Below, one piece after another: positions 20,547 through 27,431 of a stretch of DNA of 64,000 nucleotides. The notes beneath the pieces are model-generated. The model was not told the origin of the DNA, ran no database searches, and saw only the letters and a list, made by a program, of their open reading frames with translations. The position numbers and the translations under genes are program-made. The stretch's first letter is position 1; each line of letters opens with the position of its first letter. This stretch comes from Pseudomonas sp. RC10 (GTDB lineage Bacteria; Pseudomonadota; Gammaproteobacteria; Pseudomonadales; Pseudomonadaceae): NCBI RefSeq assembly GCF_038397775.1, contig NZ_CP151650.1, positions 3,038,001 to 3,102,000 on the forward strand. The letters run 5' to 3'.

Positions 20547-22685
20547 TCAGCTGTTCATCAGCTCGCGCACTCGCGACGTCAACGCGTCCACGGCAAACGG
20601 CTTAGTCAGCACCCACATGCCCGTTCCCAGATCACCATTGCCGAGGGCTGCGTTTTCCGCATAGCCGGTGATGAACAGGGTTTTCAGATCGGGCCGGACT
20701 TCCCGTCCCGCATCTGCCATTTGCCGGCCGTTCATGCCGCCCGGCAAGCCGACATCCGTGATGAGCAAGTCGATGTGCACATCCGAGCGCAACAGTTTCA
20801 GCCCCGCCACACTGTCAGCGGCCTCCATCACCGTGTAGCCCTGATCCGCAAGGACATCCATCAGCAACATGCGCACGGTCGGTTCATCGTCCACCACCAG
20901 CACGGTCTCGCTGGCTGCACAGGCAGGGCTTTGCGGATCACAGGCCTGGTTTTCTTCGGTCACCGCGTCACCGTTGTAACGGGGGAGGAAGATGCACAGC
21001 GTCGAGCCTTTCCCGACCTCCGAATACGCCCGGACCTGCCCGCCTGACTGCTTGGCGAAACCGTAGATCATCGACAGGCCCAGGCCGGTGCCTTGACCGA
21101 TGGGCTTGGTGGTGAAGAAGGGGTCGAACGCCTTGGACATCACCTCGGGCGACATGCCGGTGCCGGTGTCCGTGACCGACAGCGACACGTAGGGGCCGGG
21201 CGGAATGTCGTGGGCAGCGGCGACGTCGGCGTCCAGCCACTGGTTGGAGGTTTCGAGGGTAATCGTGCCGCCTTGGGGCATGGCATCCCGGGCGTTGATG
21301 CACAGGTTCAACAGGGCGTTTTCCAGCTGGCCGGCGTCCACCCGCGTGGCCCACAGTTGCGGCGCACCGACGGTTTGCAGATGGATGGCCGGGCCGACGG
21401 TCCGCTGGATCATTTCAGTGATCCCCAATACCAGCGCGTTGACGTCCGTGGGGCGCGGGTCGAGGGTCTGGCGACGAGAGAACGCCAACAGCCGATGGGT
21501 GAGGGCGGCCGCTCTCCGGGTCGCGGCCTGGGCCGCAATGATGTATTTCTCGACGTCGTTGAAGCGGCCCTGAAGAATCCGGCTGCTCATCAGTTCCAGC
21601 GACCCGGAAATCCCGGCCAGCAGGTTGTTGAAGTCGTGGGCGATCCCGCCGGTGAGTTGGCCGACCGCCTCCATTTTCTGCGACTGCCGCAATTTTTCTT
21701 CGGCCTGCATGAGGTCGGCGGTGCGTTCGACAACCCGCTGCTCCAGTGTGTCGTTCAGCGCCCGCAATGCGGCCGTGGCTTTGTCGCGCTCGCTCTCCAT
21801 CGAGCGACGCTCCTCGACGTCGATCAGCACACCGGGGAAACGCAGCGGCGTGCCGTCTTCCGCCAGCTCGACGCGGCCGTTGGCTTCAAGCCAGTAATAG
21901 ACGCCGTCGGCGCGGCGCACGCGGTACTGGTGAGCGTAGGCCCCGCCCCGGGCAATCGCGGCGGTGATGGCGACCTTCAAGCCTTCCCGGTCTTCGGGGT
22001 GAACGGTGGCGATGACTTGTTCAAGGCTCAGGCCTTCCCGGCCCAGCGTGGGGTCGAGGCCGAATGCCCGGGCGAAGGCTTCGTCCACGGCAAAACGATC
22101 AGTGGGCAAGTGCCAGTGCCAGGTGCCGATGATGGCCCCGGCGGCCAACGCCAACTGCACGCGCTCGACGTTTTCCCGGGCGATGGCCTCGCTGATCGAC
22201 AGGCGCTCTTGGGCACGGCGCCGCTCGGTGACGTCGCTGAAGAAGATTGCGATCTGACGTTCCGCCGGGTCCCCGACCCGAATCGCCCGCACGTCGAACC
22301 AGCGCTCGAACGCCTCGGCGTAACTCTCGAAATTGGCAGGCTCGCCCGTCTTGGCCACGTGGCCGTAGGTCTCGAACCAGAAGCGTTCGAGGTTCGGCGC
22401 GAATTCGGTGACCCATTTGCCTCGCAGGTTGACCCCTGCCTGCTGCTCGAACGCCGGGTTGGCCTCGACGAACCGGTAATCCACGGGAAGGTCGTCGGCG
22501 TCGAACTTGACCTCGACAATGGCGAAAGCGGCTTCAATGGTTTCAAGGATCGTGCTGGAGCGTTCGGCGTTCTGCCGCAACGCAGCCTCGGCGCCGCGCG
22601 CCCGCGCCAGTTCACTGCGCAGTCGTGTGACTTCAGCGGCCAACTCTTCCCGAGTCTGGTCGTTCAACGCGGCCTCCCATGACAC
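20547..22685 (-). CDS. PAS-PAS hybrid histidine kinase/response regulator divergent from kaiC
   Basis: This 712-aa soluble kinase contains an N-terminal coiled coil (about 10-45), PAS1 (45-155), PAS2 of PAS_3 type (178-292, WHWHLPTDRF), a linking helix, HisKA with H350 (GGIAHDFNN), HATPase with LCINARD and GQGTGLGLS, and a receiver with D644 (LLITDVGLP). It is divergent from the kaiC-kaiB operon with 292 bp between starts. Its HisKA-to-receiver part is much closer to the kinase at 11091-12809 than to the one inside the Kai operon. Genomic proximity suggests, but does not prove, that it takes part in Kai signalling. Confidence 0.9.
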   Translation of the reverse strand: MSWEAALNDQTREELAAEVTRLRSELARARGAEAALRQNAERSSTILETIEAAFAIVEVKFDADDLPVDYRFVEANPAFEQQAGVNLRGKWVTEFAPNLERFWFETYGHVAKTGEPANFESYAEAFERWFDVRAIRVGDPAERQIAIFFSDVTERRRAQERLSISEAIARENVERVQLALAAGAIIGTWHWHLPTDRFAVDEAFARAFGLDPTLGREGLSLEQVIATVHPEDREGLKVAITAAIARGGAYAHQYRVRRADGVYYWLEANGRVELAEDGTPLRFPGVLIDVEERRSMESERDKATAALRALNDTLEQRVVERTADLMQAEEKLRQSQKMEAVGQLTGGIAHDFNNLLAGISGSLELMSSRILQGRFNDVEKYIIAAQAATRRAAALTHRLLAFSRRQTLDPRPTDVNALVLGITEMIQRTVGPAIHLQTVGAPQLWATRVDAGQLENALLNLCINARDAMPQGGTITLETSNQWLDADVAAAHDIPPGPYVSLSVTDTGTGMSPEVMSKAFDPFFTTKPIGQGTGLGLSMIYGFAKQSGGQVRAYSEVGKGSTLCIFLPRYNGDAVTEENQACDPQSPACAASETVLVVDDEPTVRMLLMDVLADQGYTVMEAADSVAGLKLLRSDVHIDLLITDVGLPGGMNGRQMADAGREVRPDLKTLFITGYAENAALGNGDLGTGMWVLTKPFAVDALTSRVRELMNS

Positions 22686-22977
22686 ATGGCGATTTTCCTG
22701 TGGTGATCAGTGACAGCGCACCCCGAGGCGCCATCAGATCAGAAACGGCGATAACTTGCACTAGCGCCGGGCCCCGCAGACCGTGGCCTGCGTCGATGTT
22801 TTTGGAGCGGGACGGCGGCCAGGGGTTCCTTGAAAATCTGCCATCGATCGGGCGTCAGCGATGGCGTCGTCCCCCCGAATTCCTGTACAACGTAGTCTTT
22901 ATGTACAAACCACCCAAAGGCACCGAACTCCTCGCTGCTTCCGGTGCCAAACCGTCAAGCATTCCGAGTAGCAGCGA
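22686..22977. promoter_or_regulatory. Divergent promoter region between hybrid kinase and kaiC
   Basis: This holds no ORF. Two TGTACA palindromes (22884-22889 and 22902-22907), 18 bp apart and about 75-95 bp before kaiC, are the only paired motif I notice and could be an operator. An in-frame TAG at 22969-22971 limits how far upstream kaiC can start. I could not identify a confident -35/-10 pair. Confidence 0.35.
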
Positions 22978-24693
22978 TTGAATACATCCTTTAAGCCTGA
23001 AGCGTCGAACCCTTCCTCCTCGAACCCGCAGCTGGCAAAAGCCGCCACGGGCATCGAGGGGCTGGACGACATTTTATTAGGCGGCATTCCCCAAGGCCGA
23101 CCGACGCTGGTGTGCGGTGCTGCGGGGTGCGGCAAGACGCTCTTCGGCATGACGTTCCTCGTGAAAGGCGTGACCGACCACGGCGAAAACGGCGTGTTCA
23201 TGAGCTTCGAAGAGCGCGCCGGTGACTTGGTGCAGAACGTCGATTCCCTGGGCTTCGACCTGCAAACCCTGGTCGATGACAAGAAAATCGCCATCGACCA
23301 TATCTATGTCGATCGCAGCGAAATCGAAGAAACCGGCGACTATGACCTCGAAGGCCTGTTCCTGCGCCTCGGTTACGCCATCGACAGCATCGGCGCCAAA
23401 CGCGTGGTGCTCGACACCATCGAGGCGCTGTTCTCCAGTTTCAAGGACACCGCAATCCTGCGCTCTGAACTGCGCCGCCTGTTTTACTGGCTGAAGGAGC
23501 GGGGCGTCACCACCATCATCACCGGTGAACGCGGCGACGGTCAGTTGACCCGCTACGGCATTGAAGAATACGTCTCGGACTGCGTGATCTTGCTCGACAA
23601 CCGCGTGGTCGACCAAATCACCACCCGGCGTCTGCGCGTCGTGAAATACCGCGGTTCGGCCCACGGCACTAACGAATACCCGTTCTTCATCGACGAGCAT
23701 GGCTTCACGGTCCTGCCGATTACCGCTGCCGGTTTGAATCATCAAGCCCCTCAGGACATCGTTGCCACCGGCATTCGTGGCCTCGATTCAATGATGTCTC
23801 GCGGCGGTTATTACAAAGGCGCCAGCGTGTTGGTGTCCGGTCTGGCGGGCACCGGCAAGACCACGTTTGCCGCCAGTTTCGTCGATGCCTGCTGCGCCCG
23901 TGGCGAGCGATGCCTGTATTTTTCCTTTGAAGAATCCGCTAACCAGTTGCTGCGCAACATGCAGTCGGTGGGCGTCGATCTGGGCGGTTATCAAGACAGC
24001 GGTCTGTTGAAGATCGAATCGGCGCGGCCAAGCCTGTACGGGCTCGAAGTGCACTTGGCGCGCATGCACCGCGAGATCAAGACCTTTCAGCCTCACGCCG
24101 TTGTCATCGATCCGATTTCGGCGTTCCGTGGGCCGGAGTCCGAGGTGCACGCGACGTTGCTGCGACTGGTCGATCTGCTCAAATCCCGCGGCATCACCGC
24201 TATCTTTTGCAGCCTCGCCGATGTCGCAGTGCGCTCTCCGGGCCTTGAGCGCGAGATTTCCTCGCTGATGGACACCTGGATTTCCTTGACCAACATCGAA
24301 GCCGATGGCGAGCACAACCGCTTGCTGTTCGTGTTGAAGTCCCGGGGCATGGGCCACTCGAATCAGGTACGCGAATACCAGATCGGTCATGACGGGATCA
24401 ACCTGTTGCAGCCTTATATCGGGCCGAACGGCGTGTTGACCGGCACGGCGCGGTTGCGTCAGGAAGCGTTCGAACAGCGTGCGGAAGACGCCCGGATCGA
24501 AGCGGTCGAACGGCGCAAGCGGGAGGTCATCAAAAAACGGGCTGAGCTGGAACGGCAGATCGCCGCGATGCAGGCTCAGTTGGAGACCCAGGACCTGGAC
24601 GAAGCCTTCCTCGCCAGCGATGAGGCCAATCAGGCCAGCGCCGAGGACAGGACCCGCAGGACGCTGGCGTCCGTTCGGGGGTTCACCGAGTGA
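22978..24693 (+). CDS. kaiC: KaiC-like double RecA ATPase/autokinase
   Basis: This 571-aa protein has a TTG start at 22978 forced by an in-frame stop nine bases upstream. Two KaiC domains follow each other. CI has Walker A GAAGCGKT (47-54) and catalytic SFEERAG (E78/E79); CII has GLAGTGKT (288-295) and SFEES (E318/E319). S428 and S429 in REISSLMDT align with the S431/T432 phosphosites of cyanobacterial KaiC. After CII comes a charged helix of about 55 residues (about 493-548, [20 protein letters not shown]) predicted to form a coiled coil, a tail like that of non-cyanobacterial KaiC proteins such as that of Rhodobacter. It overlaps kaiB1 by GTGA. No KaiA is present. Confidence 0.93.
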
Positions 24694-25022
24694 GTAACGA
24701 CCCGCAAGCCATCGACCCCGAACAACCCGGCGACACCGGTCACTACGCGCTGCGCCTGTACGTTGCAGGTCAGACGCCGAAATCCATGATCGCGCTGAAC
24801 AATCTGAAGAGGATCTGCGAAACCTACCTTGCCGGGATCTACAGCATCGAGGTCATCGATTTGCGAGAGCATCCGCAACTGGCGGCCGGTGATCAGATCC
24901 TCGCGCTGCCGACCCTCGTGCGGCATCTGCCGACGCCGCTGGTGAAAATCATCGGCGATTTGTCCAACACGGAAAAGGTACTGGTCGGACTCGATATCCG
25001 TCCTCGGCAGAACCTCGCGTGA
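24690..25022 (+). CDS. kaiB: KaiB-like protein 1
   Basis: This 110-aa KaiB-fold protein has a GTG start at 24690 overlapping the kaiC stop. After about 18 non-conserved residues it shows [35 protein letters not shown] and ILALPTLVR followed by [13 protein letters not shown], the KaiB pattern with the conserved cis-Pro region ALPT. KaiB binds the CI ring of KaiC after a fold switch and promotes dephosphorylation. It differs clearly from the second KaiB downstream, so the two are not a recent duplication. Confidence 0.92.
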
Positions 25023-25054
25023 ACGGCGCACCCACGGAGGAGGAGGGGCATCTC

Positions 25055-25351
25055 ATGCAGACGCCCGTCCAACACCTCAAGCTGTATATCTCGGGCAATA
25101 CGTCCCGGTCCTCCTTTGCCGTGCATCAGCTCAAGGCCGTGTGTGAGAAGTACCTGGCAGGGCGCTATGTGCTCGAAGTCATCGACATTTATCAGGACAG
25201 CGGCGCGGCCCGGGACGACCGCATCGTCGCGGTGCCGACACTGATGAAACTCGACCCTGATTTCAGCCGTCGGTTGATCGGTGACCTGTCGGACGTGGAA
25301 AAACTGAAGCTGTTCCTGGGGATTGCCCCGGGCACTGAGAGCGCGTCTTGA
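25055..25351 (+). CDS. kaiB: KaiB-like protein 2
   Basis: This 98-aa KaiB paralogue is placed at ATG 25055, because a very strong GGAGGAGGAGG lies about ten bases upstream; a GTG at 25019 would instead overlap the kaiB1 stop. Conserved segments are LKLYISGNTSRSSFAVHQL, YVLEVIDIYQDSG and IVAVPTLMK with RRLIGDLSDVEKLKLFLG. It ends in a TTGA overlap with the following hybrid kinase, tying the kinase to Kai output. Its ribosome binding site is the strongest in the operon, so it may be the more abundant KaiB. Confidence 0.9.
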   Translation: MQTPVQHLKLYISGNTSRSSFAVHQLKAVCEKYLAGRYVLEVIDIYQDSGAARDDRIVAVPTLMKLDPDFSRRLIGDLSDVEKLKLFLGIAPGTESAS

Positions 25352-26979
25352 TCGCCCGGCCCGTCGGCATGACGGACGCCCAGTACATCGAACTCCTGAG
25401 CCGTCGCTTGCAGGAGGCCGACGATGTGCTGGAGGCGATCAGGACCGGCAGCGTCGATGCATTGTTCATTCAGGGCGAACAGGGCGAGACCGTCTACACC
25501 CTCGACAACGCTGACAAGCCCTACCGCCTGCTCGTCGAACAGATGCAGGAGGGCGCCGTGTCTATTTCCGCTGACGGCACGATCCTTTATGCCAACCAGC
25601 GCTTCAGCGAGATCATTGGCGCGCCCCTCGAACAGATCTTCGGGCATGCGTTTCAGGATTACCTGACCCGTGCCGATGCCGATCATTTCAGCGTGTACCT
25701 GTCCACGGACAGCGATAAGGCCATTCGCCGCGCCGCTTCATTCAATCGCCCCGATCAAACGGTGTTTCCCGGTCATCTGTCGTTCAGCAAACTGCCGGAC
25801 GACTTCTCCGGGGAAGCGATCTTCTGCGGGGTGATCACCGACCTGACCGATCAAAAGCTGATGGAGGCCCGCCTGCATCAGTCGCAAAAAATGGAAGCAC
25901 TGGGGCAGTTGACCGGTGGCCTCGCTCACGACTTCAACAACCTGTTGCAAGCCATTCAAGGCAGTTTCGACCTGATCATCCGTCGTCCGGATTCGGAGAA
26001 AGTCACGCGCTGGGCGGAAAGCGGCTTGAGGGTGGCAGACCGGGGCGCCAAGCTGACGTCGCAACTGCTGGCGTTCTCTCGCTCGCAGAAACTGGAATTG
26101 AAAGTCTGCTCGGTCAATGCCGTGATTCACGGCATGTCGGACCTGCTCATCACGACCTTGGGACAGGGCATCAAGCTGGTGTTCGAACTCGACGTGACCG
26201 ACAGCCACGTCCTCACCGACCCGGTGCAGCTCGAACTGGCGATCCTCAATCTGGCGATCAATGGCCGGGATGCCATGGGCGGCTCGGGCCAATTGCTGAT
26301 CGGCACGCGTCATCTGCAACGCCATGAATTCCTGTCGTCTGCATCCGGTTTTCTGGAAGTGCGCGTCGTCGATACCGGCGCGGGCATGAGCGAGCAGACG
26401 CGCCTCAACGCCTTCAACCCGTTCTTCACCACCAAGGACGTAGGGCAGGGCACAGGGCTGGGTCTGGCGCAGGTCGAGAGCATCGTGCAACAGTCCAGCG
26501 GTGCGGTCAGCATTGAATCGGAGCTGGGCAACGGCACGAGCATTTGCCTGGCCTTTCCGTGCGTGGACGACGCGAGGGTGCCTGAGGAGCACCTGCCATC
26601 GGCATTGGCCGACGCGGCAGGTGACCTGAAGATTCTGGTGGTCGATGACGATGACGAGGTGCGCCGGACCCTGGTGGACATGCTTGACATGTTGGGCCAT
26701 GAGGTGGTTGAAGCCGCCAGCGGTCCCGCCGGGCTCGACGCCATCGGGCAACAGGCGTTTGACTTGGTGATTCTCGATTTCGCCATGCCTGGCATGAATG
26801 GCGCCCAAGTCGCACTGGAAATCCACCGCTTGGACGCCCTCAAGCCTATTGTGTTTGTCAGCGGCTATTCCGACACCGACCAGCTCCGGCCTGTGATGAA
26901 CACCAACACCGCGCTCCTGCGCAAGCCGTTCACCCTCGACGGGTTGAAGGCCACGCTGCAGGCGATGGTGCAGCACTAA
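25348..26979 (+). CDS. PAS hybrid histidine kinase/response regulator of the Kai operon
   Basis: This 543-aa soluble kinase starts at TTG 25348, overlapping the kaiB2 stop (an ATG at 25369 is the alternative). It has an N-terminal helical segment (IELLSRRLQEADDVLEAIRTG) typical of Kai-linked kinases, PAS (57-168), HisKA with H194 (GGLAHDFNN), HATPase with LAINGRD and GQGTGLGLA, and a receiver with D477 (LVILDFAMPG). Being the last gene of an operon with stop-start overlaps throughout, it is the most likely output or input kinase of the KaiBC pair. Its stop overlaps the convergent aroQ stop by 4 bp. Confidence 0.92.
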   Translation: MIARPVGMTDAQYIELLSRRLQEADDVLEAIRTGSVDALFIQGEQGETVYTLDNADKPYRLLVEQMQEGAVSISADGTILYANQRFSEIIGAPLEQIFGHAFQDYLTRADADHFSVYLSTDSDKAIRRAASFNRPDQTVFPGHLSFSKLPDDFSGEAIFCGVITDLTDQKLMEARLHQSQKMEALGQLTGGLAHDFNNLLQAIQGSFDLIIRRPDSEKVTRWAESGLRVADRGAKLTSQLLAFSRSQKLELKVCSVNAVIHGMSDLLITTLGQGIKLVFELDVTDSHVLTDPVQLELAILNLAINGRDAMGGSGQLLIGTRHLQRHEFLSSASGFLEVRVVDTGAGMSEQTRLNAFNPFFTTKDVGQGTGLGLAQVESIVQQSSGAVSIESELGNGTSICLAFPCVDDARVPEEHLPSALADAAGDLKILVVDDDDEVRRTLVDMLDMLGHEVVEAASGPAGLDAIGQQAFDLVILDFAMPGMNGAQVALEIHRLDALKPIVFVSGYSDTDQLRPVMNTNTALLRKPFTLDGLKATLQAMVQH

Positions 26980-27431
26980 ACACGTTTCGCTTTGCCTTCC
27001 AGCAACTCCGCCACCGCCGTCAACGCCATCCGGTAACCCAGCGCGCCCAGCCCGGCGATCACGCCGGTGGCGGCCTTCGACACGTACGAGTGATGCCGAA
27101 AGCTTTCGCGCTTCCAGATGTTGCTCATGTGCGCCTCGATGATCGGGCCGTCGAACGCGAGCAGGGCGTCCAGAATGGGAATCGAGCTGTAGGTCAGCCC
27201 CGCCGCGTTGATGATCACCGCGTCGGCGCGCAGACGGGCTTCCTGAATCCAGTCCACCAGCACGCCCTCGTGATTGCTCTGGCGAAACGCCAGGGTCAGG
27301 CCCAGCGCGTCGGCGTGTTTCTGGCAGCCTGCTTCGATGCTGGCGAAGCTTTCCGTGCCGTAGGTGCCGGACGTGTCCAATCCATACAGGTTGGCGTTGG
27401 GGCCGTTCAGGAAAAATACGGTGTAGGGCAT
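26976..27431 (-). CDS. aroQ: Type II 3-dehydroquinate dehydratase-like protein
   Basis: This 151-aa protein has the type II dehydroquinase signature NGPNANLYG (9-17), a Tyr in GTYGTESF, SNHEG, INAAGLTYSS, EAHMSN and FRHHSYVS. It interconverts 3-dehydroquinate and 3-dehydroshikimate, in either biosynthesis or quinate catabolism. Its substitutions (NANLYG rather than NLNLLG) suggest a secondary copy, not the housekeeping aroQ usually paired with accB. It is last in a leftward run with a GST and a quinone oxidoreductase, 15 bp after the GST stop. Confidence 0.88.
   Translation of the reverse strand: MPYTVFFLNGPNANLYGLDTSGTYGTESFASIEAGCQKHADALGLTLAFRQSNHEGVLVDWIQEARLRADAVIINAAGLTYSSIPILDALLAFDGPIIEAHMSNIWKRESFRHHSYVSKAATGVIAGLGALGYRMALTAVAELLEGKAKRV

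Follow-up and report, generated by a model that had tools for sequence, protein, structure and literature searches.

This study concerns a kai operon of Pseudomonas sp. RC10, located in a window of 64,000 nucleotides (the whole stretch of DNA that was analysed; contig NZ_CP151650.1, positions 3,038,001 to 3,102,000). In this operon, kaiC, two kaiB paralogues (kaiB1 and kaiB2) and the gene of a hybrid histidine kinase follow one another, and their open reading frames (ORFs) overlap by 4 nt at each of the three joints; a second hybrid kinase is encoded divergently from kaiC (Table 1). The original prediction, made from the sequence without database searches, had described a PAS-HisKA-HATPase-receiver kinase overlapping stop to start with kaiC and two kaiB genes, a divergent PAS-PAS hybrid kinase, and the absence of KaiA. 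The ORFs and the Pfam matches agreed with this operon, the divergent protein was matched by five Pfam domains in the expected order, and no KaiA was recovered from the host genome (6.71 Mb, single contig) by a search that was positive in Synechococcus elongatus. Only two kaiB matches were found genome-wide, and both correspond to the kaiB1 and kaiB2 of the operon. Since kaiC-kaiB-kinase operons are already in print, what is new here is a module of ~60 residues at the start of the operon kinase, of which no mention was found in searches of an open-access library.

Table 1. Features of the kai operon and of the divergent kinase (positions within the window).
Feature	Position	Strand	Remarks
Divergent hybrid kinase	20547..22685	-	PAS, PAS, HisKA, HATPase, REC (Pfam)
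Operon kaiC-kaiB1-kaiB2-kinase	22978..26979	+	
kaiC	22978..24693	+	KaiC2 type, C-terminally extended; 571 aa, start codon TTG
Adjacent serine codons S428, S429	24259..24264	+	aligned with S413/S414 of Rhodobacter sphaeroides KaiC, in CII
KaiC C-terminal extension	24475..24690	+	aligned to the coiled-coil region of 8dba; left edge approximate; coiled coil by alignment only
kaiB1	24690..25022	+	110 aa; PF07689, 85.5 bits
kaiB2	25019..25351	+	110 aa; PF07689, 67.1 bits
Operon kinase	25348..26979	+	543 aa; module, then PAS, HisKA, HATPase, REC (Pfam)
N-terminal module of operon kinase	25375..25578	+	model A1, positions 1-68; end overlaps PAS start
PAS of operon kinase	25534..25854	+	PF08448, residues 63-169
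HisKA and HATPase of operon kinase	25900..26559	+	PF00512, PF02518; His194 in AHDFNN
Receiver of operon kinase	26632..26958	+	PF00072, 71.9 bits; Asp477

The operon KaiC was matched by Pfam KaiC (382 bits) and by NCBIfam NF006799 (718 bits, cut-off 408), and its Walker A motifs (GAAGCGKT at 47 and GLAGTGKT at 288) and catalytic FEE motifs (77 and 317) delimit two RecA-like domains. It shares 56.1% identity over 558 residues with the KaiC of Cereibacter (Rhodobacter) sphaeroides, and its residues 19-553 align to PDB entries 8dba/8fwi, a span that takes in both serines, the tryptophan that follows them and the C-terminal extension; the numbering of S428/S429 was counted from the alignment map, with an offset of 4, and from the bases. 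According to the accessible part of Pitsawong 2023 (PMC10076222), R. sphaeroides KaiC is a dodecamer that autophosphorylates in the absence of KaiA and, with KaiB, is driven by ATP/ADP, a behaviour that may be carried over to the Pseudomonas KaiC by similarity only. This KaiBC hourglass also resembles the present system in its operon, in which a PAS kinase whose N-terminus carries the same module comes after kaiC-kaiB, and differs from it in having one kaiB beside kaiC, rather than two, and an HWE kinase in place of a HisKA hybrid kinase. The term "histidine kinase" is absent from the main text of that paper.

Both KaiB proteins scored above the Pfam cut-off of 27 bits and below the stricter NCBIfam cut-offs for circadian KaiB. 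The best PDB match of KaiB1 was R. sphaeroides KaiB (8fwj_M), KaiB2 is 42% identical to KaiB1, and KaiB1 is the more conserved of the two across loci. Two KaiB fold orders are described in the available part of PMC10808063; the structure model of KaiB2 adopted the fold-switched one and most closely resembled fold-switched KaiB and Legionella Lpp1115, the SasA N-domain ranking lower. Since this model was made for KaiB2 alone, it says little on the difference between KaiB1 and KaiB2.

The kaiC-kaiB-kaiB-kinase order was kept in all of the 11 related loci that a search of named genomes with the operon KaiC had yielded (by title, eight Pseudomonas, one Gammaproteobacteria, one Flavobacterium metagenome-assembled genome (MAG) and one Acidobacteria MAG), and therefore did not arise by chance; having been found by similarity, these loci represent the nearer relatives of that KaiC. 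The two nearest KaiC relatives, both titled Pseudomonas, were 99% and 93% identical, and the flanks of the window were common only to the two closest of the 11 loci. KaiB is rare in the family, since it was above the cut-off in 3 of 298 genomes (host included), with a fourth weak match. Moreover, an identical four-gene kai order was found on the conjugative plasmid p3 of Pararhizobium qamdonense (locus L160, 284750-296944), which is a possible route of spread. Given an order kept broadly, flanks kept in the two closest loci only and a copy on a conjugative plasmid, the operon appears to travel as one piece, with the divergent kinase as a mere neighbour. As a separate observation, some kai loci are possibly decaying or misassembled (L109, L126, L175, L164 and genome G362 near 2571648), with kaiC in broken or overlapping frames, an in-frame stop in kaiB or the effector split into two ORFs.

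The module had no family in Pfam, NCBIfam, PHROGs or the PDB sequences, the best stray E-values being 0.005 to 0.04. In cyanobacteria, the histidine kinase that reads KaiC is SasA, and the title of PDB entry 6x61 places its thioredoxin domain on KaiC CI. A KaiB-like thioredoxin N-domain of this sort was rejected for the operon kinase, which gave no Pfam KaiB match and whose module reached a profile probability of only 0.4% against KaiB2; a KaiC-like origin was likewise rejected (0.2%). The operon kinase may be SasA-like in its role, but not in its structure. The AlphaFold2 model (12 rows) placed a helix, a hairpin and a second helix before the PAS domain, and the 50 Foldseek matches listed were all PAS or LOV proteins. 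LOV domains carry the Cys-bearing flavin motif NCRFLQ, and no flavin Cys motif was seen by eye in the operon kinase. A motif search indicated that this kinase keeps its catalytic His, N and G boxes as well as the receiver Asp.

The distribution of the module was surveyed with a profile built from 17 N-terminal segments, all of them from kai loci. The host genome held one copy. In a phylum sample of 398 genomes, searched to an E-value of 1e-5, 10 copies of at least 41 bits were found in 10 genomes, all directly behind kaiB; a class sample of 369 genomes, searched to 0.01, gave nine copies of at least 50 bits in eight genomes, all behind kaiB or a remnant of it (the kaiB upstream of the copy in G362 carries an in-frame stop), together with 12 partial matches of at most 22 bits; and the class of genome G969 (152 genomes) gave three copies of at least 97 bits, each behind kaiB, and three matches under 20 bits. 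These surveys overlap; when each copy was counted once, 20 strong copies in 19 genomes remained, 20/20 behind kaiB or a remnant, and nine of the 20 were not among the segments from which the profile was built. The scores of the two surveys with an E-value limit of 0.01 left a gap from 50.7 down to 21.9 bits, and no kaiB occurred within about 1.5 kb on each side of the 15 weak matches. Only part of the first-look candidates were scored (e.g., 15 of 46), so that weak copies may have been missed. Among the surveyed genomes, a second strong copy was present in G626 alone. This genome has four kaiB as well as kaiC genes of another clade (at least two), and two of its kaiB are followed by weaker modules (50-53 bits) on long proteins.

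A similar association was observed in 72,556 plasmid records searched with single segments, in which the module of the window matched 12 records, that of L113 13 and that of R. sphaeroides 14. Thirteen of these 14 records were exactly the 13 with a KaiC2-type kaiC (57-62% identity), and the fourteenth was plasmid pSA1 of Novosphingobium. Nine of the 13 are from Cereibacter, which leaves about five lineages. The annotation read in six of the 13 records gave kaiC, one or two kaiB and then the module gene; in the other seven, all from Cereibacter, the coordinates placed the module within 600 nt of the kaiC match. The 13 records include the R. sphaeroides operon, since the kinase behind kaiC-kaiB in strains KD131 and 2.4.1 carries the module (64 bits). 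These data bear on the proposal that the operon's own kinase reads KaiBC, which was favoured indirectly, both by the constant fourth gene in the 11 relatives and by a module that accompanies kai loci in records with the titles Pseudomonadota, Flavobacterium (MAG) and Acidobacteria (MAG).

Besides its position, the module is joined to different output enzymes. A domain scan of 20 proteins included 17 module carriers, all with PAS domains. Like the window kinase, which was scanned apart from these, L160, L126, L021, L092 and L090 had HisKA-HATPase-REC architectures, as did L103 and L111 with HisKA under the cut-off; L020 had HisKA-HATPase alone. Others carried an HWE kinase (L161, L104, L163, L165), which is also the kind of the module kinase of R. 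sphaeroides 2.4.1/KD131, or GGDEF-EAL domains (L109, L116, L101), and only PAS or GAF was seen in L113 and L099. A second kaiB was present in 16 of the 31 module loci (17/32 with the window). Two kaiB genes occurred in 16/19 loci with HisKA-type carriers (L103 and L111 included) versus 0/8 with HWE or GGDEF-EAL carriers as given by the domain scan or the annotation, counts that leave out L164, L093, L113, L119 and L099. A second kaiB as specific partner of HisKA kinases was not retained, for this pattern, although present, is not separable from descent.

In a KaiC tree of 61 rows, a single branch (Shimodaira-Hasegawa-like approximate likelihood ratio test, 97) separated all 29 rows in which a module gene follows kaiC at no more than 1,500 nt from the 32 rows in which none does, so that the module state required one change, compared with 20.4 when the states were shuffled. 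KaiC ORFs shorter than 420 aa, including L109 and L126, did not enter this tree; L029 duplicates the contig of L017 and L030 that of L015, and the KaiC of L161 and L162 are identical. The KaiC score separated the same groups, with at least 503 bits in rows with the module and at most 392 in those without. The module copies of G640, G362, G1065, G1087 and G626 (contig C105) were examined only after the tree; the kaiC upstream of the first four scored 493, 545, 639 and 717 bits, that of G1065 being in two overlapping ORFs.

The conservation of the module was compared with that of its neighbours in 17 aligned kinases, from which six pseudomonad and seven distant rows were taken, the groups having been fixed before the values were seen. 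In the distant HisKA-type set, the mean pairwise identity was 58.8% for the module, 31.4% for PAS, 36.7% for HisKA, 37.2% for HATPase and 31.7% for REC, and the Kai proteins of this set reached 59.1% (KaiC, six rows), 64.5% (KaiB1, six rows) and 44.7% (KaiB2, five rows). Positions of the module that were invariant in the alignment include L17, L21, E23, R32, G34, D37, A38, Y59 and R60 (numbering of the operon kinase). Across 24 loci, pairwise distances correlated between module and KaiC (r 0.83), module and KaiB1 (0.68), module and PAS (0.59) and KaiC and KaiB1 (0.84); L162, L011, L103, L093, L119 and the loci without a usable KaiC were left out of this comparison.

These results altogether suggest that the four genes probably form one operon, which would combine a KaiA-less KaiC2/KaiB timer or energy gauge with its own reader enzyme, and that the module would be a Kai-docking input placed on swappable outputs. 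In this scheme, KaiC would autophosphorylate on its two serines and be reset with KaiB according to ATP/ADP, as transferred from R. sphaeroides by similarity. The module would sense the assembly state of KaiC and KaiB, probably by docking on the assembly in a manner that may depend on KaiC phosphorylation, and would pass the Kai state to whichever output enzyme comes after it. Here, a HisKA kinase with its own receiver would feed an HPt protein elsewhere, likely one of those encoded in the genome, and in relatives the output would be an HWE kinase or a GGDEF-EAL protein. It is the GGDEF-EAL outputs that favour a flow from Kai to the enzyme. The broader proposal, in which the module is an undescribed Kai-reader domain that docks on KaiC itself and serves non-cyanobacterial KaiC2-type KaiBC timers as their common input, with outputs exchanged between lineages, is evenly balanced in our judgement.

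Several observations weigh against this reading. Tight linkage and the common descent of one operon could produce co-occurrence without contact, and the output class needs a minimum of only two changes on the KaiC tree, in which the split effector of L164 was labelled HWE from its neighbours and not from Pfam. In the pseudomonads, HisKA was more conserved than the module (86.2% versus 73.2%), and thus the conservation contrast belongs to the distant set. PAS distances are near saturation, which lowers the PAS correlation; for this reason, and because KaiC is long, the agreement between module and KaiC distances is a hint, and not more, that the module may meet KaiC. The module itself was poorly modelled (block means of 44-71 in the predicted local distance difference test), and remote forms away from kai genes may have escaped a profile built from kai loci. 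One look-alike was met away from them: on plasmid pSA1 of Novosphingobium resinovorum (L166, 1171277-1171357, minus strand), a 28-residue helical half-module sits on a 251-aa kinase that has a large hybrid kinase next to it; the 12-kb stretch read around it gave no kai match, and as sole query this half-module matched only itself. Furthermore, G626 breaks the KaiC-clade rule with two module copies behind kaiB: in L099 (contig C11), scored as lacking the module under the 1,500-nt limit, the nearest kaiC lies 2.7 kb off and belongs to the other clade, and L172 stands on a short contig (C105) without kaiC. Finally, the module-linked KaiC of L101 has only 475 aa, which leaves no room for the C-terminal extension.

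Other explanations have to be considered for the same arrangement. The module and the kinase may have been co-inherited with the operon as passengers, sensing something else through PAS without any Kai contact. Gene order alone is no proof of contact, and the small number of output changes on the tree suits this explanation as well; it is nevertheless held to be unlikely, given that in the distant set the module, unlike the remainder of its protein, is conserved at the rate of the Kai proteins, that it persists in proteins with an output domain of a different family, and that no second strong copy was found in the surveyed genomes other than G626. Kinases can also act on the clock, as known for CikA, and by this precedent the PAS kinase may sense redox, ligand or energy state and reset KaiC, with the module as a docking arm and the flow running from kinase to clock. 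KaiC is not known to be a His-Asp phosphoacceptor, and the three GGDEF-EAL proteins among the carriers are easier to understand as outputs, so that this direction is regarded as doubtful, despite the suggestion that the R. sphaeroides operon kinase is a redox transducer to KaiBC (Min 2005, according to the accessible part of Schmelling 2017, PMC5520375), which speaks against a flow from Kai to the enzyme.

A SasA split into two proteins was also contemplated, in which KaiB2, modelled as thioredoxin-like, would bind KaiC and bring the HisKA kinase along. This arrangement, compatible with a module that docks on Kai, draws on the likeness of the KaiB2 model to fold-switched KaiB and Lpp1115 and, at a lower rank, to the SasA N-domain, and on the restriction of paired kaiB to HisKA-type loci. 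However, that restriction amounts to one or two independent pairs, the model covers KaiB2 alone and AlphaFold2 may favour this state, three HisKA-type loci have a single kaiB, and HWE loci manage without a second one; it is thus considered quite improbable. The divergent kinase had been proposed as a further Kai partner, the two receivers forming a chain. Both kinases are indeed hybrid, adjacent and divergent, which would suit a shared phosphorelay, but the divergent one adjoins the operon in only 2/11 related loci, the same two that have the flanks in common with the window, and is absent beside it in the other nine. Moreover, the genome encodes about a dozen hybrid kinases of this sort, and the closest paralogues of the divergent one lie elsewhere in it (67% and 62% identity over the kinase part). 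Its membership in the operon was therefore rejected, its role as a Kai partner was not sustained, and a common phosphorelay appears very improbable.

The module of the operon kinase has to be seen against previous descriptions of such operons. De Luca 2011 (PMC3164672) reported, in the part available, that in almost all kaiC-kaiB clusters outside cyanobacteria, the gene immediately after kaiC or kaiB encodes a histidine kinase or a GGDEF/EAL protein. The RtaNt N-terminal domain of that paper occurs in a kaiB-less group and was likened to SasA/KaiB; it is set apart from the present module by description only. For R. sphaeroides and R. palustris, Ma 2016 (PMC4794148) named a kaiC-B-PAS/HK operon, with the gene order and the final PAS kinase seen here; one kaiB is named for it, and the accessible part of the text names no shared module. 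The present operon thus belongs to a known kind, and in its general form the idea of a kinase within a kaiBC operon, as originally put forward, was already in print (De Luca 2011, Ma 2016, Schmelling 2017). KaiC-like proteins have also been related to the stress response in Pseudomonas (Terrettaz 2023, as cited in the available part of PMC11372060).

The genomic setting is ordinary: genes for an MFS transporter and a GNAT acetyltransferase flank one end of the region, and those for a type II dehydroquinase, a GST and a zinc dehydrogenase flank the opposite end. Neither a response regulator nor an HPt protein was found among the six neighbouring genes scanned, and the receiver of the operon kinase would therefore need an outlet elsewhere; the genome gave 11 Hpt domain matches, one of them on a 135-aa frame. 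For this reason, the earlier description of the system as self-contained was too strong. No promoter was returned in 22500-27100, where shuffled sequences gave 0.9, by a search that did not cover other promoter types. Two double-domain KaiC-like genes of 494 and 473 aa were seen outside the window, at L027 (G000:C1:3163000-3175000) and L028 (3780000-3792000); each adjoins a same-strand hybrid kinase that lacks the module, and in L028 a 122-aa receiver lies between the two genes.

KaiA-less KaiBC timers have been rebuilt in vitro, and the literature, in the parts available, does not show how cells read them. The module, being present in an operon with solved KaiC and KaiB structures, names the part to examine. 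Should it fail to bind, a large set of kaiBC-kinase operons would lose its assumed output; if the proposal is true, the module would fill the place of the missing output link in the R. sphaeroides hourglass, and this reading predicts that one timer drives either a phosphorelay or cyclic-di-GMP turnover.

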